A stretch of DNA of 64,000 bases, taken from the NCBI RefSeq assembly GCF_007741475.1, contig NZ_CP036261.1, forward strand, positions 6,449,798 through 6,513,797, given 5' to 3'. Under the pieces are notes generated by a model that was not told where the DNA came from, did no database searches, and worked only from the letters and a program-made list of their open reading frames with translations. Below, in pieces: positions 2,943 to 53,682 of the stretch. Source of the DNA: Rosistilla ulvae. Lineage in GTDB: Bacteria; Planctomycetota; Planctomycetia; Pirellulales; Pirellulaceae. The first letter of the stretch is position 1. The number at the start of each line of letters is the position of its first letter. The translations under genes and the position numbers were made by a program.

Positions 2943-4247
2943 CTATGTCACGCTGCGAGCGACGGCAAAAATGATGTTATCGCGATCGACCGACTTGGCC
3001 ATCCATTCAAGAACTTTAAAGTCGCCACTGGCGGTTCGATAGCGGTTCCGGAAACCAACGACCGACTGTCCCTTCTGCAACAGGCTCATCTGCTGGACCG
3101 TTTCGGAAACGTCATCGGGGTGGACGAAGTCGAGGAACGGTCGCGCTAACAACTCGGCATCGCTGTGCCCCAAGACTCTCGAAAAGTTGGCGTTGATGCG
3201 TTGGAAATAGCCATCGGCGTTGGCGATGCAGAATAGATCCAACGACAATTCGAAAAACCGATTCATATCGCTTTCCATCTGTTGGAAAGCCGATTCGTGA
3301 TAGGCAGCCATCGCCTGAGCAACTTCCACCGCCGATTGTGGGCGATCCTTGCTGCGGCGTGATAGGCACTGTTTAGCCAAACGGACCAAGGCGCAGTCTT
3401 GGGCCGATTCGTTCAACACGTCGATCGCCCCTTGCGTCGAACCTTTCATCGCGGATTTATGAATTTGGCGAACGTTATTTCCTTCGTAGGGTGCATGTCC
3501 AATCAGGATCTCGCACAGCATCGCCCCGAGGCTAAAGACGTCGGAGCGAGGATCCAGTTTCCGGCCGCGGGCCTGTTCTGGGGACATGTACCCTGGGGTT
3601 CCATTGACCGTCCCCTTTGTCGGTTGGTTCCCAAACGACTCCCCAGTCAGATCGGTTCCCTCGGGCGGTTCCCCTTCAAAACGTGCCAGTCCCCAGTCCA
3701 TCACATGGACTTCGCCAAACTCCCCCACCATCACATTGCCCGGTTTCAGATCCAGATGCATGACACCGCGGGAATGTGCGAACGCAACCGTCTGGCAGAC
3801 ATCGGCGAAGATGTAAACAAGATGCGACGTGCTGAAAGTCTGCGATGCCAACATGTCGGCTAGCGTCCTTCCATCGATCAACTTCATCACGTAGTACGGA
3901 CGCCCATCTTGGCACGTTCCGCATTCGTAAATCGGGGTCACCCCAGGGTGCGACAGGAAACTCATGATCCGGGCTTCGTCGACGAAGCCTTGCCGAGCCG
4001 GTGTATTGGCCGACCGGTCGGCGCGTAAGACCTTGATCGCCACCTTGCGCGACAACTGGAGATCGCGGGCGGAAAAGATTGCTCCCATCCCGCCTCGTTC
4101 GATCATCTCGCTGATCTGATACCGCGGATTGGCAAGCACTGGCAAGTCAGCCGTCGTCGCGGAATCGTTCGCCTCCGACCCCATCGACGTCGTCAACTGA
4201 CGCGTCTGGACACGCTTGCCCCAGTCGTCGCTTGGAGGTTCATTCAT
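2943..4247 (-). CDS. Cytoplasmic Ser/Thr protein kinase with C-terminal PAS domain
   Basis: A 434-residue PknB-like kinase. The domain starts near residue 43 with the Gly-rich loop (ERGGMGAIF) and catalytic Lys72 in VAIK. The catalytic loop is H-L-D-L-K-P-G-N (164-171), so the Arg of HRD is Leu and the kinase is of the non-RD kind. The metal-binding motif is D-W-G (184-186) instead of DFG, and the activation segment ends GTPGYMSPEQ. A PAS domain occupies about 330-434 (LFCIANADGYFQRIN, then FLDFVHPDD). No membrane segment is present, so sensing is probably cytoplasmic. A kinase followed by PAS suggests a ligand or redox input to phosphorylation. It diverges from the isomerase gene. Confidence 0.9.
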   Translation of the reverse strand: MNEPPSDDWGKRVQTRQLTTSMGSEANDSATTADLPVLANPRYQISEMIERGGMGAIFSARDLQLSRKVAIKVLRADRSANTPARQGFVDEARIMSFLSHPGVTPIYECGTCQDGRPYYVMKLIDGRTLADMLASQTFSTSHLVYIFADVCQTVAFAHSRGVMHLDLKPGNVMVGEFGEVHVMDWGLARFEGEPPEGTDLTGESFGNQPTKGTVNGTPGYMSPEQARGRKLDPRSDVFSLGAMLCEILIGHAPYEGNNVRQIHKSAMKGSTQGAIDVLNESAQDCALVRLAKQCLSRRSKDRPQSAVEVAQAMAAYHESAFQQMESDMNRFFELSLDLFCIANADGYFQRINANFSRVLGHSDAELLARPFLDFVHPDDVSETVQQMSLLQKGQSVVGFRNRYRTASGDFKVLEWMAKSVDRDNIIFAVARSVT

Positions 4248-9735: not shown

Positions 9736-9771
9736 GAACTCGCCCCAACGTGAGCCGGGCACTCCCCGCAC

Positions 9772-9914
9772 TTCACCCGCCCAGCGCAGCTGGGAGGGTC
9801 GAAAAACGAGCGTCTAGCAAGTTTTTCGGGGAGGGCCTACCGACGTCCGATCTGCCGAACTCCCCTCCCCGAACCACGCTTCGCGGGTTCGACCCTCCCT
9901 GGGGGAGGGTGAAG
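9772..9914. repeat. Palindromic repeat, copy 1 of 2 (143 bp)
   Basis: The unit begins TTCACCC and ends GGGTGAA, and nested inside are GGGAGGGTCGAA and its complement TTCGACCCTCCC, so the ends form an inverted repeat around a core. It is identical base for base to the copy at 9952-10094, separated by 37 bases. It lies between two convergent genes. Confidence 0.9.
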
Positions 9915-9951
9915 ACGAGCGTTACCGGCCAGCGTAAAACCAAGCCCGCGA

Positions 9952-10094
9952 TTCACCCGCCCAGCGCAGCTGGGAGGGTCGAAAAACGAGCGTCTAGCAA
10001 GTTTTTCGGGGAGGGCCTACCGACGTCCGATCTGCCGAACTCCCCTCCCCGAACCACGCTTCGCGGGTTCGACCCTCCCTGGGGGAGGGTGAAG
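9952..10094. repeat. Palindromic repeat, copy 2 of 2 (143 bp)
   Basis: The second identical copy, offset by exactly 180 bases from the first. It ends 7 bases before the nadB stop. Frames that run through both copies are not genes. Confidence 0.9.
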
Positions 10095-45711: not shown

Positions 45712-45964
45712 GCAGTGTGCAGCTCCGGGATCGCGTTGCACAAGCAATTTGCTGGGACAACGGCGATCGACCGAGAATCGATGGTGAAGAATGAGGACTG
45801 TCCAGGCCGTTAGAATAAACCTTCGCGATCAGAATTCGGAGCCCCCAGGCCCGATTCTTGCCCCGTCGCCGGAACTGGCTCGCCCTCGGGCCAGGGGAAT
45901 CTATAATAAGGTAGCGTCGCCCGGCGTCCCTTTTCCCCAACGCATTCCCGAGACCATCGCCCCT

Positions 45965-48900
45965 ATGGCCACTGCCGCAGCAACGACCGATCGCGGCGAC
46001 GCGATCATTACCGAGCATATCGAGAACGCGCGGCGAGTGCTGTGGCGTCGCGAATTGCTGACGGCGGTGCTGATCTGGGCGGTCGGAATGTTGGCCGCTT
46101 TGATCGCGTGGGCGATCGCCGACCAATGGATCTTCCAAGCCGGAGCGGTCCTGCGAACGCTGGTCTGGCTGGTTCTCGCCGCCGCGTCGATCGCTTGGTT
46201 TACGATCCGAATCGTGCCCCTGCTTCGGCATTCGATCCACCCCGAATACGCAGCTCAGTCGCTGGAACGCCGCGTCCCGCAACTGCACCACAGCCTGCTC
46301 AGCTATCTGACATTGCGAACCGATCGCGAGATCCCCGGTCTGCGAGGCGTCGTCGTCCGCAGTGTCGCGTCGCACGCGGCTCGCCGCTTGGCCGATCCGC
46401 AATCCGATCCACTGGCTTCGGAAAAACAAATCACTCTGCTCAGCGGTTCGCTACTGGCATTGATCGCGATGCTGCTGATCTACGCGATCGCATCTCCCAA
46501 AAACACAGTCCAATCGGTCCAGCGGTTGATGATGCCGCTGGCGAGCATCGAAGCGCCGACAAGCGTTCGGATCGGAGCCGTCACGCCGGGAGACACCCAA
46601 GTTGCCGAAGGAACTTCGCTAACGATCACCGCCGAAATCGATGGACTCAAGCCGGACCAACAGGCCTGGGTCGAAACGACTCAAGGCTCGATCGCTCATC
46701 GCGAAGTCATGCAGGCGACAGAGACAGAATTCACAGCCACCGTAGGGGCTAGTGGCGACGGAATCCGGCACGACACCCAGTACTGGATCGTCGCCGGCGA
46801 CGCGCGGCGTGGCCCTTTCGAAATCAAAGTCGAAGCGGTTCCCATCGTCTCGATCGGATCGGTTCAATATCAACCGGCTGCCTACACGCGTCTGCCGTCG
46901 CGCAGCAACAACCGCGGCGCGATCGATGGTTTAGAAGGGACCGCGGTCACCGTCGTGGCTCAGTCGAACCTGCCGATCGCCAAAGCGAAGATCGAATTCA
47001 ATCCAAAACGGATCGGATCGATCTGGCAAGCGACCGGCGGCGTCAAAGCGATGGAGATCGCCGACGACCAGATGTCGATGAGCACATCGTGGGTCTTGCG
47101 TCGAGCGGAGGAAGAGCGGGGCGTCGTGGCGATCGAGAGCTACCGGATCGTCGTCGAAGATGCTCAAGGGCTGACCAACGCGGCCCCGGTGATCTACCCA
47201 GTTAAGGTTGCGGCCGATCTGAGCCCCGAGGTCTCGATCATCGTCCCGCATCAATCTCCTAAAGACCTGCCGATCGGAATGGAACAGCTGATCGAGGTCC
47301 ATGCCTTGGACCCCGATTTTGGCCTGTCGCGAATGGAGTTCGAAATTCGCAAGGGAGATCGCCTGCTGGGAACTCGCAAGATCTTTGAATCGACCGAAGC
47401 GTTGATCGGCCAACAGGTATCGATCTCCGCCTTCCGCAGCGAGGACTGGAACCTGATCGCCGGCGACAAGGTGACCGTCCGATGCCGCGCGTTCGATAAC
47501 CGCGACATGCCGGGCAACCAAACGACCGATCCCAATAGCACGGTTTCCGAACCGATCGAATTGCACATCGTCGCTCCTCCTGAGGATGCCGAAGACGAAG
47601 CCGATGGCGACGGCTTGCAGAAGAAGAGCGACCGCGAGTCCGACGATCCGAGCGGATCGGGCAAGCAGGATGGAGAAGGTGGCGGCAGCGGCGGCCAAGG
47701 AGATTCGACCGGAGAACAAGCCGAAGGGAAAGGCAAAGGTGAATCGGGTGGAGGCGAAGCCGGAGGGGAGAACCAAGAACCATCGGAAGATTCCGAATCG
47801 GGGTCCGACGGCGCTGGGGGCAAGCCCTCGGACAAGCCTTCCGAAGAGGGGACTGAACCAAATCAAGGCGGCGGCGACGCTGCGGGGGATTCGGAAAACA
47901 AGGGCTCCAACAAACCGGGCGATTCGCCAGCGGGAGACGATCCGTCGCAATCGAAGTCCGATCCCTCGGCGTCGGATATGACGCAGGAGAGCGGTCCCGA
48001 ATCGGGTGGCAAACCTGGGGACCAAGCGGGCAGTCCCGACGCGTCGGCTAGTCGATCGGAATCGGGCGAGGAGCCCGGACAGGGCGAGGCAACCGATGCC
48101 GAAGCCGACGGTTCCGAACCGCCTGCGGGGAACGCGGGTGATTCCAAATCTGGCGGCTCCGGTTCGCAGCGCGATGCGGGCGAGGGGGCCGAAGAACCGC
48201 AGGACGACGGGCCGCTGCACGATGGCGAGATCATGGAACGGATCCGCGAACACATGCAGAAACAGCAAGCTGAACAAGAGCAGGGCTCTCAGAAACCAAG
48301 CGATCAAGAGAGCGATGATTCCGGCGACGGCAAACCTGAACAAGGTGCCGACGGAGCGGAAGGGGCTGGCGGCAAAAAGGACAAACAGCCTCAACCGGCC
48401 GACGCGAAGCCTGCCGGCGATGCCGCATCCAAAGGTGAACCGGGCGAGCGCGGCGACCAAGGGGAAGGAGCCAAACCAAACCAAGGCAACGACTCCGGCC
48501 AGATGCCCCAAGACGGAACGAAGCCAAAACCCAGCGGCGGCAACAACAACCCGGAGACTGGAAACAACGGCAAATCGGATAAGGGTGATCAAGGCTCCGG
48601 CGAGGGCAAAGCGCCCGACGACAAGCCATCGGCAACCGATCCCGCGACCGATGGCAAGAACGACGCTAACGACACGGCGGGCCAAGAGGCTGAAAACCAG
48701 ACTGGCTCCGATGGCAAACCGGCTGGCGACGACCAAGCGAAAGGAAAAGCTGCCGATCCGGCCGGTTCCGACCCGGCCGACGGAACCGATGCAGGTCCAC
48801 AAGACGATGCCGGCGCCGACCCGAACTCCGACTCCAAACCTTCCCAAGGGAAGGGCGATCAAAAAGGGAAGGGAAAGGGCGAAGCAAGCGACCCGGCCGA

Positions 48901-49513
48901 CCAGACCGATACTCCATCGGGAGACGAAGCAGGGGAGAGCGGCGACGATTCGATGACCACCGAATCGAAGGCGGGTTCGTCCGATTCGAAGTCCAACCCC
49001 CAAGGCAAGCCGGGCAAACGTCCCGACGGGAAACAGGGAGAGCCAGGAAAATCGGCCGACTCACCGCCGTCGGAAGCTGCAGCTCAAGGCGACCAGATGG
49101 GCGATGGCGCAGGTGCCGACGCCGCCTTGCCGCCTGAAAAGATCAATCAGGAATACGCCAAGAAAGCGACCGATCTGGTGCTGGACTACTTGAAGAAAAA
49201 GCAGTCCGAACCGGACGCCGAACTGTTGGACAAATTGAACTGGACCGAACAGGACTTGCAAAACTTCCTCAACCGCTGGCAGCAAGCTCAGGAAATGGGG
49301 CGGGTCGGCGACGAGAAAGCGAAACAAGAATACTTGGAACAGATCGAAAGCCTGGGCATCCGCCCGCCGGCGAGTTCCAAGTCGCGGCAGACGATCCAAC
49401 GCGAAGACTCACTGCGAGACGTGCGGGAATCGGGACAGCGAGTCGCTCCGCCGGCGCTCTATCGCGACGCCTTCGAAGCCTTCCGGCGATCGATCTCCCG
49501 AGGCGACAACTAA
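45965..49513 (+). CDS. Large membrane protein, DUF4175-like, with ~517-residue low-complexity linker
   Basis: A 1182-residue protein. Three N-terminal membrane segments are visible: two at about 31-54 and 58-82, and a third at about 157-176. An exported beta-rich region follows (about 200-535; for example VTPGDTQVAEGTSLTITAEI). Residues about 539-1056 are a hydrophilic low-complexity tract of Gly, Ser, Asp, Glu, Lys, Pro and Gln. A conserved-looking helical C-terminus follows (about 1056-1182, ATDLVLDYLKKKQSEPDAEL, LNWTEQDLQNFLNRWQQ). The layout resembles DUF4175-type proteins. ATG 45965 is chosen; the frame is open to 45791. The tract opens a long antisense frame that is not a gene. Function is unknown; envelope is the likely site. 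Confidence 0.82.
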   Translation: MATAAATTDRGDAIITEHIENARRVLWRRELLTAVLIWAVGMLAALIAWAIADQWIFQAGAVLRTLVWLVLAAASIAWFTIRIVPLLRHSIHPEYAAQSLERRVPQLHHSLLSYLTLRTDREIPGLRGVVVRSVASHAARRLADPQSDPLASEKQITLLSGSLLALIAMLLIYAIASPKNTVQSVQRLMMPLASIEAPTSVRIGAVTPGDTQVAEGTSLTITAEIDGLKPDQQAWVETTQGSIAHREVMQATETEFTATVGASGDGIRHDTQYWIVAGDARRGPFEIKVEAVPIVSIGSVQYQPAAYTRLPSRSNNRGAIDGLEGTAVTVVAQSNLPIAKAKIEFNPKRIGSIWQATGGVKAMEIADDQMSMSTSWVLRRAEEERGVVAIESYRIVVEDAQGLTNAAPVIYPVKVAADLSPEVSIIVPHQSPKDLPIGMEQLIEVHALDPDFGLSRMEFEIRKGDRLLGTRKIFESTEALIGQQVSISAFRSEDWNLIAGDKVTVRCRAFDNRDMPGNQTTDPNSTVSEPIELHIVAPPEDAEDEADGDGLQKKSDRESDDPSGSGKQDGEGGGSGGQGDSTGEQAEGKGKGESGGGEAGGENQEPSEDSESGSDGAGGKPSDKPSEEGTEPNQGGGDAAGDSENKGSNKPGDSPAGDDPSQSKSDPSASDMTQESGPESGGKPGDQAGSPDASASRSESGEEPGQGEATDAEADGSEPPAGNAGDSKSGGSGSQRDAGEGAEEPQDDGPLHDGEIMERIREHMQKQQAEQEQGSQKPSDQESDDSGDGKPEQGADGAEGAGGKKDKQPQPADAKPAGDAASKGEPGERGDQGEGAKPNQGNDSGQMPQDGTKPKPSGGNNNPETGNNGKSDKGDQGSGEGKAPDDKPSATDPATDGKNDANDTAGQEAENQTGSDGKPAGDDQAKGKAADPAGSDPADGTDAGPQDDAGADPNSDSKPSQGKGDQKGKGKGEASDPADQTDTPSGDEAGESGDDSMTTESKAGSSDSKSNPQGKPGKRPDGKQGEPGKSADSPPSEAAAQGDQMGDGAGADAALPPEKINQEYAKKATDLVLDYLKKKQSEPDAELLDKLNWTEQDLQNFLNRWQQAQEMGRVGDEKAKQEYLEQIESLGIRPPASSKSRQTIQREDSLRDVRESGQRVAPPALYRDAFEAFRRSISRGDN

Positions 49514-49589
49514 CGCCACCCAAATGGTTTTCGTGTTACAATCCGGTCAGTATTCTTGAAACCGCTGACCGATTCCGAAGGCCCGACCG

Positions 49590-50831
49590 ATGTCCACACG
49601 CTGCCTGACAACGTGCATTTTGCTTGCGATTCTCTGCAACAACCGTCCGGTCGTCGCTCAGGAGGGAAGCTTTCTCGACGCGATCCGCCAGCGGATTCAA
49701 TCGGCTGCGGATAACCAAACCGAAGAGAAAAAAGAGCAGACGCGGAAGAAGCTGGAGAGCCTGTTTTCGATCGTCACCGAAGGGGCTCGGGAAATCTACC
49801 GCACCCTTCCCGACGACTCTCAAAAAGCGATCGACCAACGCCGACAAGCGTGGATGGACGCGATGGCTTCGGGAGTCGACGACCTCACCGGGGACGACAT
49901 CGAACGTTGGCTGGACAATTCCGACAACGTGATCCTACGATCGCTGTCGCGCGGCGGCGACGCCCCAAGCGTGAACGCCCAATCGCGAACCGACCTGCTG
50001 CCCGAGCAGTGGTGGTATGGCAAACAGAATCGAACGCTAGCTCAATTGTTGACGCAGCCTCCCGAGACGATCATCCGTCGCGAGGACCTTCCCGGTCCGC
50101 CGATCTGGTTCGTTAACGGGATCACGACGAAGAAGGCCGAAGCGATCATGATGGCCGACGAAATCGCCGAACAACTGGGCCGCCGCGTCCATTTGCTGCA
50201 TAACCCCACATTCATGGAACCGCCAAACCATTCGGGCTTAGATGTCGAAGGCTACGGAACCGACGACCTCAGCGAATGCCTGCACGACCGATTATGGCCG
50301 GCAACGGTGTTCAACAAGCTGAACCGGATGGACGCCGAGCAATTGCAGGCGATGCTCGACGACGGCCAGACATTACAAGGAAATCCAACGACACGTCAAT
50401 TGGCCTACGTTTTGCTGACAGCGCGCGAACCGATCAGCTTGATCACGCATTCGCAGGGCTGCATCATCGCCCGCAACGCGATGTTCACGATGGCGATGCT
50501 GGGGCGACGCGAGCAGGCGGAACAACAGATCGCGTGGATCGCCGCGGGGATCCCGCTGAACGACAAAGAGCTGTCGCCGCTACCGCTGCAAACGACGATC
50601 CTGGATGTCGGCGACGATCCGATCGCCAAGATCGTTGGGATGCGAGGCGGATCGCGTGAGTATCGTGGCACCGATCATTCCTTCTCGGATCACTATTGCC
50701 GACAGATCCAAGCGGAACAGCTGTGGCACGACGCGTTGCCCGCGACCGACAAACCGGCGGTTCCACCGGCACCCGAAACCTCGACCGAGACGAAGCCCGA
50801 CGCGAAATCGCCCAAGCGGGTAAAGCTGTAG
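49590..50831 (+). CDS. Exported alpha/beta-hydrolase-like protein, 413 aa
   Basis: A 413-residue exported protein with a signal peptide (about 1-24, ending VVAQE). After a helical region (about 27-110) comes a region resembling alpha/beta hydrolases: IWFVNGITTKKAEA near the expected oxyanion region, a nucleophile-elbow-like LITHSQGCIIARNA (Ser in T-H-S-Q-G), and later ILDVGDDPIAKIVG and YRGTDHSFSDHYC, which could supply Asp and His. A Pro/Lys tail (about 385-413) ends it. It may be a lipase- or esterase-like enzyme; family unknown. It lies 76 bases after the DUF4175-like gene and just before the repeat array. Confidence 0.75.
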   Translation: MSTRCLTTCILLAILCNNRPVVAQEGSFLDAIRQRIQSAADNQTEEKKEQTRKKLESLFSIVTEGAREIYRTLPDDSQKAIDQRRQAWMDAMASGVDDLTGDDIERWLDNSDNVILRSLSRGGDAPSVNAQSRTDLLPEQWWYGKQNRTLAQLLTQPPETIIRREDLPGPPIWFVNGITTKKAEAIMMADEIAEQLGRRVHLLHNPTFMEPPNHSGLDVEGYGTDDLSECLHDRLWPATVFNKLNRMDAEQLQAMLDDGQTLQGNPTTRQLAYVLLTAREPISLITHSQGCIIARNAMFTMAMLGRREQAEQQIAWIAAGIPLNDKELSPLPLQTTILDVGDDPIAKIVGMRGGSREYRGTDHSFSDHYCRQIQAEQLWHDALPATDKPAVPPAPETSTETKPDAKSPKRVKL

Positions 50832-51791
50832 CAGGGCAGGCGGGCCGCTTCGTTTAACCGCGGCACCAACGCCCCGCGCGTCACACACTCTCGAGACTCG
50901 CCCCCAAAGCGTGGCCCGTTGGGCACGCGGTTAAACAATCCGCACGACCTCGTTTAACCGCGGCGGCAGCGCCCCGCGCGCCGCACATTCTCGAGACTCG
51001 CATGCAACGCGCGGCCCGATGGGCACGCGGTTAAACGATCTGCACGACTTCGTTTAACCGCGGCGGCAACGCCCCGCGCGTCGCGCATTCCCGAGACTCT
51101 CACGCAAAGCGCGGCCCGATGGGCACGCGGTTAAACAATCCGCACGACTTCGTTTAACCGCGGCGGCAACGCCCCGCGCGTCGCGCATTCTCGAGACTCT
51201 CACGCAAAACGCGGCCCGTTGGGCACGCGGTTAAACGATCTGCACGACCTCGTTTAACCGCGGCGGCAACGCCCCGCGCGTCGCACACTCTCGAGACTCA
51301 CACGCAAAGCGCGGCCCGATGGGCACGCGGCTAAACGATCTGCACGACCTCGTTTCACCGCGGCGGCAGCGCCCCGCGCGTCGCACACTCTCGAGACTCA
51401 CACGCAAAGCGCGGCCCGATGGGCACGCGGTTAAACGATCCGCACGACTTCGTTTAACCGCGGCGACAACGCCCCGCGCGTCGCACACTCTCGAGACTCA
51501 CACGCAAAGCGCGGCCCGATGGGCACGCGGTTAAACGATCTGCACCACTTCGTTTCACCGCGGCGGCAACGCCCCGCGCGTCGCGCATTCTCGAGACTCA
51601 CACGCAAAGCGCGGCCCGATGGGCACGCGGCTAAACGAAGCGATCGCACGCCGTCGCCTTCGCCGCCCGTTAACATTTCATGAAATTCGTTGCGATTCAC
51701 CCTTTACGGCTTGCCGTTTGCGATGTTAACTGAAACTTAACACACACAACGACTCCGACGGTAACGGGGTAGACGCAATAGGGGTTTTGAA
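50832..51791. other. Intergenic region filled by 100-bp repeat array
   Basis: 960 bases between two plus-strand genes; about 790 of them are the tandem array. The remaining 153 bases before the C39-like gene contain its likely promoter and a GTTAACATTTCATG stretch. Confidence 0.8.
50851..51638. repeat. Tandem array of eight 100-bp palindromic units
   Basis: Units start at 50851, 50951, 51051, 51151, 51251, 51351, 51451 and 51551, each exactly 100 bases; the last is cut after about 88. Each starts CGTTTAACCGCG and at unit positions 76-87 has the complement CGCGGTTAAACG, then a 13-base spacer like ATCTGCACGACTT. A CTCGAG lies in the middle of most units, and the halves are imperfectly complementary along the whole unit. 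Adjacent units also form a compact junction hairpin: 12-bp stem, 13-base loop. 100 is not a multiple of three, so the frame changes every unit, arguing against coding. Units differ by a few substitutions and no indels. Confidence 0.95.
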
Positions 51792-52694
51792 ATGCAGGAC
51801 TTAACCACAGCATTGGCAACGATGACGCTGGTTTCCCTTGCTATCTCCCTGGCCAGCTACCGCGCGACTCGCAACACGCCAGCCGCCCACTGGCTCTTCG
51901 GCGGACTGCTCCTATCCGCTCTACTGTTCGAGCGACTGTTGGCCGATCGGCTATTTTGGGCGCAACTGCTGCCCGATTCCTCAGCAACGATCGTCTGGTC
52001 CAACGCGACACCGTTACTGCTAGCTGCCGCGTTTGGCGTCGCGATGCGAATCTGCGACCTTCCGCAAACCGGCCATCGGGTTGCCGCTGGATTGACGGCC
52101 ATCTTAGCGGTTGCCGCCATGGTGGCTCCGGTCGTCCGCCCCTACGCTCGGCCGGTCGAGACCGCGCAGACCGAGCCACTGTGGTCCGACGGCGTCTGCC
52201 TGCAGACGCAGGATTCGACGTGCGGTCCGGCGGCGGCAGCGACTCTGCTGCGGTTCCACCATCTGTGGGCGACCGAAGCGACAATGAACCCGCTGTGCCT
52301 TACAGGTCGCGACGGCACCTCGTCGCTGGGTGTCTATCGCGGTGTCTACAACGTGGCCAACACGACGGGCTATCAACCGCGGGCGATTTGCGGTTCGTAT
52401 GATGAATTTGTTCAGAGTGGCCAATTTCCCGCGATCGTGATGGTCCGCTACCCCGAACAACGCCGCGATTGGAAATCGAAATTGCTGGGGACGATCGGTC
52501 GACGCAGCGGCGAAGGGCACGTGATCGTCGTCTTCGGCCCGAATGCAGAGGGGCAACTCGATGTCGGCGATCCGGCGGTCGGCCGTTCGTCGTGGGATGT
52601 GGAAACCTTAAAAGAACTCTGGGACGGCGAGGCGATCTACCTGCAGGGCGGCCAGCGTTATGCGGCCAACGCAGTTAACCCATCGGCGACGTGA
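51792..52694 (+). CDS. Membrane protein with C39-like cysteine peptidase domain
   Basis: A 300-residue protein. The first ~118 residues form about four membrane helices (for example LFGGLLLSALLFERLL and VAAGLTAILAVAAMVAPVV). The rest is a papain-like C39-type domain: Cys144 in DSTCGPAAAATLL, with Gln140 four residues earlier as in C39, His243 in GEGHVIVVFG and Asp260 in DVGDPAVG. The triad looks complete. C39 peptidases trim double-Gly leader peptides, usually in ABC exporters; here no ABC domain is fused. Its last 20 bases overlap the end of an orphan ABC ATPase on the other strand. The substrate is unknown. Confidence 0.85.
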   Translation: MQDLTTALATMTLVSLAISLASYRATRNTPAAHWLFGGLLLSALLFERLLADRLFWAQLLPDSSATIVWSNATPLLLAAAFGVAMRICDLPQTGHRVAAGLTAILAVAAMVAPVVRPYARPVETAQTEPLWSDGVCLQTQDSTCGPAAAATLLRFHHLWATEATMNPLCLTGRDGTSSLGVYRGVYNVANTTGYQPRAICGSYDEFVQSGQFPAIVMVRYPEQRRDWKSKLLGTIGRRSGEGHVIVVFGPNAEGQLDVGDPAVGRSSWDVETLKELWDGEAIYLQGGQRYAANAVNPSAT

Positions 52695-53682
52695 GCCGCG
52701 CGCCGTCGCTTGTCGCAAAGCGATGCAACCTGCAACGGGCAACACAAGCCGTCAACTGCTGCCCAACCTCCAGCTGCTGCTGTCGGTCGACGATGACCGC
52801 GATACGCCCCCCCGCTGACCGCAGATGGACCACGTTGTGCGAACCGAGGCACTGAACGGCATCGACGACTCCAGCGATCTCCAAGTCGTCGTCGCCAGCC
52901 GATCGAAAGGAGAGATCCTCGGGGCGGATGCCCAACAGTCCTACTCGCCCGTCGGGAATAAAATTCATCGGCGGGGAACCGACAAATTGGGCGACAAAGC
53001 GATTCGCTGGTTGATCGTAGATCACGTCCGGCGGAGCCACCTGCTGGATCACACCGCGATCGATCACCGCGATCTGGTCCCCCAACAGCATCGCTTCGGT
53101 CTGGTCGTGCGTAACGTAAAGGACCGTCAACGCAAACTCTTGCTGCAGACTGCGAAGCTCGTTCCGCATCGCATCGCGTCGCCGGACATCGACATTCGAC
53201 AACGGTTCGTCCATCAACAACAACTGGGAATCGCGGACGAGGGCACGAGCGACGGCCAACCGCTGCTGCTGGCCGCCGGAGATCTGATCGGGTCGGCGAT
53301 CGAGCAACGCCTCAAGCCCCAGTTTTTCCGCGACGTCGGCGACTTTGGTGGCGATCTGCGCGCTCGAAAACTTGCGGCCCCGCAGCGGAAAGGCGATGTT
53401 CTCGCCGACGCTCATGTGGGGATAGAGGGCAAAATCCTGAAAGACCATCGAAACGTTGCGTTGCCGAGGTGACAACCGACCGACTGCGCGGCCGCCGATC
53501 GCGATCTCCCCCGCGTCGGGCGTTTCGAGCCCCGCGATCAGCCGCAACAACGTCGTCTTGCCACTGCCGCTGGCCCCCAGAAGCACCAACAGCTGCCCCG
53601 CATCGACCGAGAGGTCCAAATGATCCAGGACGATCCGGCCGGCAAACGACTTGCAAAGCTTGCGAATTGCGAGACCCGCCAT
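52675..53682 (-). CDS. Orphan ABC transporter ATPase, MalK/UgpC type
   Basis: A 335-residue ATPase. Walker A is GASGSGKTT (36-44), the Q-loop is in MVFQDFALYPHMSVGENIAF, the signature is ISGGQQQRLAVARAL, Walker B LLLMDEPLSNVD, and the switch His is in THDQTEAM. The C-terminal ~110 residues form the TOBE/MalK regulatory part (GLLGIRPEDLSF). This type powers importers of sugars, glycerol phosphate or other solutes. No permease or binding protein is nearby. The frame extends upstream to 54375, but that part overlaps msrB antisense and is noise; ATG 53682 fits the family start. Confidence 0.93.
   Translation of the reverse strand: MAGLAIRKLCKSFAGRIVLDHLDLSVDAGQLLVLLGASGSGKTTLLRLIAGLETPDAGEIAIGGRAVGRLSPRQRNVSMVFQDFALYPHMSVGENIAFPLRGRKFSSAQIATKVADVAEKLGLEALLDRRPDQISGGQQQRLAVARALVRDSQLLLMDEPLSNVDVRRRDAMRNELRSLQQEFALTVLYVTHDQTEAMLLGDQIAVIDRGVIQQVAPPDVIYDQPANRFVAQFVGSPPMNFIPDGRVGLLGIRPEDLSFRSAGDDDLEIAGVVDAVQCLGSHNVVHLRSAGGRIAVIVDRQQQLEVGQQLTACVARCRLHRFATSDGARLTSPMG

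Follow-up and report, generated by a model that had tools for sequence, protein, structure and literature searches.

The window, a stretch of 64,000 nucleotides from Rosistilla ulvae, contains a tandem array with a period of 100 bp at positions 50848–51638. This array is very probably a BIME made of eight REP doublets. The doublets belong to a genome-wide family linked to a REP-associated tyrosine transposase (RAYT); one of them would have come to lie 3′ of a gene through RAYT activity and then have multiplied locally. Its membership in the REP/BIME–RAYT kind is well supported.

Tandem Repeats Finder reported 7.9 copies of the 100-bp unit with 92% matches, 0% indels and a score of 1302. The start-to-start distance is 100 for every unit, confirming the eight units of strict period without indels in the original prediction; the unit ends are complementary, as it also claimed. 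Compared pairwise over 88 nt, the eight units have a mean identity of 0.921 (range 0.852–0.977). The most divergent is unit 1, which is 9 positions off the consensus. Each unit holds two REPs. In unit 1, REP type a lies on the plus strand (50850–50882; limits from the per-position information content of 45 loci) and consists of TC, the tag GTTTAAC and a bulged hairpin. It recurs each 100 bp up to a final copy at 51550–51582; the inner stem is GGC-NNN-GCC in the majority of units, and units 6 and 8 have the tag GTTTCAC. REP type b is inverted (minus strand, 50906–50938 in unit 1; information content of 44 loci) and has the same tag as type a and the inner stem GCCC-NNN-GGGC. It recurs with the same period, the final copy being at 51606–51638, and here units 5 and 8 have the tag GTTTAGC. 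Twelve of the 16 tags in the array are intact. The first doublet (REPIN) measures 85 nt from tag to tag (50852–50936) with TCTCGAGA at the centre of its linker, and an outer spacer (50939–50949) separates it from doublet 2. Counted on both strands, GTTTAAC occurs 13 times in the window (4.0 expected), and 12 of these are inside the array.

The array starts 17–21 bp past the stop codon of an upstream gene of 413 aa (49590–50831, plus strand). The only Pfam match of its product is sub-threshold (Tle3, E=0.012), and its N-terminus resembles a signal peptide by appearance. Approximately 155 bp beyond the array a downstream gene begins (51792–52694, also plus strand), and its Peptidase_C39 domain (E=2.3e-8) agrees with the C39-like gene foreseen there. 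Two further features of the window were observed. A second dispersed tandem repeat at 9765–10094 comprises 1.8 copies of a 180-bp unit with 98% matches; it has 67 matches in the genome, with neighbours often about 180–195 bp apart. A 1240-aa ORF at 45791–49513 has a middle of several hundred low-complexity residues rich in G/D/S/E/K/P.

RNA folding of 50832–51791 gave z = −8.2 against 20 shuffles. Two alternative folds had been proposed, one within the unit and one across the unit junction. Both are indeed predicted, but they are little better than shuffled sequences (z −1.35 and −1.11, respectively). The single hairpins of the window are of ordinary stability relative to shuffles (z −0.9 and −1.5). 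As the energy of single hairpins is not unusual, structure was judged by covariation instead. There is no excess of intrinsic terminators at the array (2 vs 2.1 in shuffles), and a search of window positions 49500–53000 against Rfam gave two chance-level matches alone (E 0.45 and 1). A CRISPR is ruled out because the entire 100-bp unit repeats, spacer included, and there are no unique spacers. The earlier views that the array is neither coding nor CRISPR both hold up.

The genome was searched as a single contig of 7,475,804 bp. BLAST with the window array yielded 117 matches, and a 16-mer core taken from the unit (≤2 mismatches) yielded 242, compared with 7 for a reversed-pattern control. The core matches are grouped in intergenic clusters, of which there are at least about 50; tandem arrays with periods other than that of the window array (81 to about 350 bp) are common among them. 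For the study of individual loci, 48 stretches (L018–L065) were chosen from the BLAST and core matches listed, and an extra stretch (L066) was taken around another Y1 gene. The sampled stretches hold 186 of the 242 core matches, the window holds 8 more, and 48 lie outside the sample. The fetched stretches and the window contain 21 arrays with at least 3 cores. Spacing is constant in seven of these, at 81, 100 (three arrays), 116, 132 and 154 bp, and is variable in the other 14, with distances of up to about 350 bp or greater. Arrays that keep five different constant lengths or none lend no backing to the earlier suggestion that exactly 100 bp is selected for. Such a pattern is what amplification of a single unit in place would produce. 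The three arrays that share an exact 100-bp spacing are those of the window, L031 and L036.

Gene context was derived from simple longest-ORF models. By these, 53 of 56 clusters lie in intergenic gaps, two lie within an ORF and one could not be placed. The 53 clusters occupy 27 convergent, 19 tandem and 7 divergent gaps, compared with 18, 68 and 30, respectively, for the 116 REP-free gaps longer than 80 bp in the same stretches. Clusters are enriched in convergent gaps (convergent vs the rest, p = 3.5e-6; divergent vs the rest, p = 0.07). This placement by gene orientation resembles that of known REPs.

We aligned the elements on their tags, with each locus represented by its commonest copy (type a, 45 loci; type b, 44). 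The search pattern was the tag plus the next three bases with one mismatch allowed, and all other positions were free. Information content runs from 2 bases before the tag (TC) to approximately 30 bases into the hairpin, with almost none beyond. The REP is a unit of approximately 33 nt with sharp limits. The type a consensus is TC-GTTTAAC-CGCG-(bulge)-GGGC-loop-GCCC-CGCGCG; in type b the inner stem is reversed. The element is a short imperfect palindrome with a fixed foot, present in high copy number and extragenic, as is characteristic of REPs. The conserved parts of the doublet are two separate inverted hairpins. We counted 117 doublets across the fetched stretches and the window; their length varies by locus from 66 to 126 nt. 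These inverted pairs, which also occur as tandem modules in the 21 arrays, have the arrangement of REPINs and BIMEs.

One type a stands opposite one type b in all 41 classifiable loci of this genome (6 of 47 were unclassifiable), and the pairing holds in 98 of the 99 copies classified among the 117 doublets. We considered the a/b doublet as a rule for the family as a whole and rejected it, since mixed pairs, compared over the first five bases past the tag, predominate in only 16 of 36 loci (30 of 70 pairs). The two-type doublet is documented for this genome only.

The inner linkers are 0.83 identical within arrays and 0.39 identical between loci (sampled pairs), the latter compared with 0.38 when shuffled. 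Type a arms are 0.92 identical between loci. Linkers match between some neighbours, namely the two arrays at the RAYT gene (0.80–0.92) and two doublets 3.5 kb apart. Among distant linkers, 25 pairs in all reach 0.7, the best being L025/L040 with 0.86 over 21 nt. This pattern indicates that the ends belong to the family and that most arrays grew locally from a doublet at the site, in keeping with the earlier idea that a single palindromic element gave rise to a satellite. As linkers seldom match between loci, there is little evidence for the movement of entire doublets.

Two congeners, G167 and G168, were compared at the same sites. At the site orthologous to the window array, G168 has an array that begins after the same sequence as in the window and consists of two complete units plus a third, degenerate one; the C39 gene is missing beside this shortened array. 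In G167 the orthologous gap has no array. It carries approximately 150 bp of other sequence, so a clean empty site was not obtained at this locus. The RAYT site of G168 carries one doublet but lacks both the RAYT gene and the arrays, a state that could be either a loss or a precursor; in G167 the two flanks are at separate places. Loss of the RAYT gene by recombination between its flanking arrays is one possibility. At L054 the doublet is absent in both congeners, and the extra DNA in R. ulvae is approximately 240 bp, more than the doublet. At L049, the corresponding site of G167 holds a doublet-like match (91% over 82 nt), and the two flanks are approximately 2.5 kb apart in G168. The states of the congeners fit turnover of the elements. 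A repeat-like stretch around GCGGCGGGATGTAGT was seen adjoining REPs at two unrelated sites, L097 (about 3019–3130; G168) and L054 (about 3040–3120; R. ulvae).

A search of the genome with Y1_Tnp found seven places. The weakest of these, L029, sits between two arrays of the REP family. GTTTAAC occurs 20 times in the 3.2-kb L029 locus and 0–1 times at the six other Y1_Tnp loci, so that the gene at L029 is flanked by its cognate REPs. The encoded protein, P0001, matches the NCBIfam model REP_Tyr_transpos (NF047646) with E = 1.2e-10 and 41.5 bits, below the curated cut-off of 80, and Pfam PF01797 with 21.2 bits, below the cut-off of 23. When the members of an alignment of this protein with its relatives (A1) were compared with the same models, 25 of 25 matched REP_Tyr_transpos at E ≤ 0.01 and 21 of 25 matched Y1_Tnp. 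Residues H102, H104, Y172, N176 and P177 are invariant in the 25 aligned rows and make up the HxH and YxxxNP motifs; a W residue is also conserved. An AlphaFold model of L121, a 62%-identical relative, has a mean pLDDT of 80.4 and a pTM of 0.78, with low confidence at residues 16–26 and 38–47. The top structural match of this model is the ISDra2 transposase (E about 1e-5), and other IS200/IS605 transposases were also matched. Its match to the RAYT–REP hairpin complex (PDB ID: 4er8) has E = 4.3e-4, a probability of 1.00 and a TM score of 0.44 by query length; over the IS200/IS605 transposases and 4er8 the TM scores range from 0.38 to 0.44 by query length, with probability 1.00. Judged from this predicted model and the motifs, the protein between the arrays appears to be RAYT-like with an HUH/Y1 fold.

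Two other Y1 loci of the genome deserve mention. L015 (G000:C1:3022199-3022486) encodes a Y1 protein with NHVH and YVREAQ, by eye nearer to published class 3 than the L029 RAYT is. L011 (G000:C1:1051840-1052184) is the best Y1_Tnp match of the genome and contains one in-frame TGA; a REP doublet lies approximately 2 kb away, and there are three copies of GTTTAGC at the locus.

P0001 has matches at E ≤ 1e-8 in 33 of the 241 genomes of its family. A search of genome contigs with alignment A1 gave 255 relatives. Judged by their titles, all but one (a Vicinamibacteraceae MAG) of the best 80 of these 255, which were kept, are from Planctomycetota, to which we take Kuenenia and similar relatives to belong. 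All 7-mers were counted beside 108 RAYT loci, made up of two sets in which genomes possibly overlap. GTTTAAC was the most often enriched (55 of 108 loci), and GTTTAGC was enriched at 18 of 108. A list of five tags was derived from these prior counts on RAYT loci, and the threshold of at least two copies within 600 bp was set after viewing the data; some flanks are shorter than this. At this threshold 72 of the 82 loci used for the tree have one of the five tags, and 64 of these have GTTTAAC or GTTTAGC. GTTTAAC alone reaches it at 35 of 82 loci, compared with a mean of 0.4 and a maximum of 13 in 60 tag permutations, a maximum that may represent a shifted version of the tag itself. GTTTAGC reaches it at 31 of 82 loci (permutation mean 0.6, maximum 3). 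The minor tags GTTTCGC, GTGTAGC and GCGTAGC (5, 2 and 1 loci) are within their permutation controls (maxima 11, 6 and 12).

The RAYT tree, calculated by a quick method, has 82 rows (the 80 kept loci, L067 and L068). One branch with an SH-aLRT of 97 splits 41 rows from the other 41. The first clade comprises 35 rows with GTTTAAC, two with GTTTAGC and four with other labels; the second has none with GTTTAAC, 27 with GTTTAGC, five with GTTTCGC, two with GTGTAGC, one with GCGTAGC and six others. The tag label changes 14 times on the tree, whereas shuffled labels change 38.8 times on average and were as low in 0 of 200 shuffles; kinship of the rows clusters labels to some degree anyway in this test. 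The sequence after the tag is specific to lineages (AGT..ACT, CGT..ACG, CCG..CGG, CCGCC..GGCGG, CGCG..CGCG and others). The outer stem is complementary in 40 of 85 distinct REPs, compared with 19.7 (sd 3.2, maximum 30) when the partners are shuffled, as expected of a REP hairpin kept by compensatory change. The tag and the RAYT co-diverge, and the stems differ by lineage but covary. Two RAYT loci also carry repeats that are unrelated to the tag: L090 has 16 palindromic CTCGCGAGCGAA-like 12-mers, and L148 has 16 copies of the 11-mer CGGATTGAAAC, possibly a CRISPR.

Across the 241 genomes, at least 10 copies of a generic tag–hairpin pattern were found in 16 of the 33 genomes with a P0001 match and in 17 of the 208 without one (Fisher p = 1e-7). 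The remaining 17 RAYT-positive genomes have fewer than 10; among them are R. ulvae and G170, whose hairpin types are missed by the generic pattern. The core from the window unit has its 242 matches in R. ulvae and 777 in G170, and of the 32 other genomes tested 30 have 0–11 or, in the case of G147, 42. The congeners G167 and G168, each a single contig, have 44 and 210 core matches, and the RAYT is absent from both, also by profile search. This counts against the RAYT association, as do the RAYT-positive genomes with few copies and the RAYT-negative ones with many; we tentatively read the state of the two congeners as loss of the RAYT after the REPs had spread. In 19 REP-positive genomes without a close RAYT, weak partial profile matches were found in nine (best E 1.2e-10). 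Seventeen of the 19 are in at least 150 contigs and may have lost the RAYT gene in assembly, which does not apply to the single-contig G167 and G168.

REP doublets, BIME arrays, RAYTs with BIME flanks and unrelated inter-REP segments are described mainly for gammaproteobacteria, as far as the available parts of the sources go (PMC2817692, PMC3116915, PMC8266576). In E. coli, BIME-2 lies on both sides of the RAYT gene tnpA_REP (yafM). The present family shares with that system bulged hairpins, a fixed foot, two REP types and a RAYT between arrays, but the foot is GTAG there and GTTTAAC here, according to the excerpts available (PMC2817692, PMC8266576). The motifs xH[TV]H (x mostly E or Q), W followed by A/T/N/G, and YVxxNP also set the present RAYTs apart from that of E. 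coli. The Stenotrophomonas BIMEs of Nunvar et al. (2010), as quoted in the accessible text of PMC2817692, likewise have head-to-tail modules and non-homologous inter-REP segments; the phylum and the tag are different. The REPINs of P. fluorescens SBW25 are inverted doublets with a less conserved spacer, in tandem clusters and in some cases beside RAYTs, as here; the portion of PMC3116915 at hand gives next-neighbour distances peaking at 71 and 110 bp, compared with the locus-dependent doublet lengths found here. The class 3 TnpA_Y1 transposases occur in Planctomycetes, Acidobacteria and Proteobacteria, mainly in Planctomycetes, and also have repeated hairpins on their flanks, but their NHVH, YV[VI][AENY]EQ and foot CnGA differ from the YVxxNP and GTTTAAC/GTTTAGC seen here, in the sections available (PMC6006769). 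This excludes class 3, and the foot GTTTAAC of the window and family likewise excludes the superfamilies with the feet GT[AG]G and CGTC.

Going by the descriptions in the available parts of these papers, none of the published classes (GTAG, CGTC and CnGA) accommodates the tag together with the motifs of the RAYT. Papers found to link a REP-associated tyrosine transposase with Planctomycetes include PMC3733652, which in its available part reports GTAG repeats in the PVC superphylum, and PMC6006769. The main texts searched contain no description of a GTTTAAC-tagged REP with a transposase; supplementary tables may hold an earlier sighting. Among the papers listed for CGTTTAAC with repeat and hairpin, none looks related by its title. 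The available parts of PMC6749651 and PMC2864571 mention Rhodopirellula and no such REP family, the main text of PMC12306157 contains neither "planctomycet" nor TTTAAC, and PMC11588811 gave a false word match only. Thus, the kind is already known, and the tag GTTTAAC/GTTTAGC with its motif set is new within the main texts searched.

A mechanism can be proposed. The resident RAYT at L029, as a HUH single-strand nuclease, would recognise the tag and hairpin on single-stranded DNA and cut beside the tag, with the conserved TC dinucleotide as a possible cut site. REPs may then be moved or copied to intergenic positions, in many cases immediately 3′ of a gene. At the window site, a single doublet would have multiplied locally, together with its own linker, until there were eight copies; unequal exchange, slippage or rolling-circle copying driven by the RAYT could have achieved this. 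Any effect on the 3′ end of the upstream transcript would be secondary.

Three other explanations were weighed. The array could be a cis-regulatory element specific to this locus, that is, an attenuator, a terminator or a 3′ structure that stabilises the mRNA of the upstream gene, its copy number being under selection. The strong folding of the region, the short distance from the stop codon and the equivalent start of the G168 array speak for this, but the same elements are present at dozens of sites, G167 lacks the array at this one, and terminator-like sites are as frequent as in shuffled sequence. We consider it improbable. The original prediction had itself named the occurrence of the array at other intergenic sites as an argument against a local function, and this is what was found; an origin as an attenuator or local protein-binding array is opposed by the dispersed family and by the congeners alike. 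A function particular to the window locus is unlikely. REPs elsewhere can have regulatory side effects, so cis-regulation may be a secondary role.

Less probable still is a plain satellite, formed by tandem duplication through replication slippage with no transposase involved. Growth of the array is accounted for in this way: the period is constant, the linkers are mostly private, and their identity within arrays is well above the between-locus level. Dispersal is not accounted for, nor are the fixed tag with its covarying hairpins, the RAYT between arrays and the co-divergence of tag and RAYT. The inverted ends, variable interior and dispersed copies would also suit a MITE of a classical transposon with terminal inverted repeats; however, the ends are covarying two-tier hairpins beside an HUH transposase, and the linked gene has the HxH and YxxxNP motifs. 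This makes a MITE very improbable, and a BIME of RAYT-associated REP doublets is the reading we prefer.

A broader proposal can be put forward tentatively, although we think it somewhat doubtful. The Planctomycetota may have a large REP–RAYT superfamily of their own, in which each RAYT clade reads the 7-nt tag GTTTARC as an addressing code and the stems can diverge freely. In R. ulvae, two fixed and different ends (a and b) would then enclose DNA that is largely arbitrary, much as if an insertion sequence kept its left and right ends around an exchangeable interior.

With the REP family described here, the REP–RAYT partnership extends to a clade of planctomycetes that has a guide tag of its own. 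The natural single-base swap of the tag from GTTTAAC to GTTTAGC follows the transposase tree, and the choice of hairpins by the RAYT is thus directly testable. Other intergenic tandem repeats in such genomes may have the same explanation.
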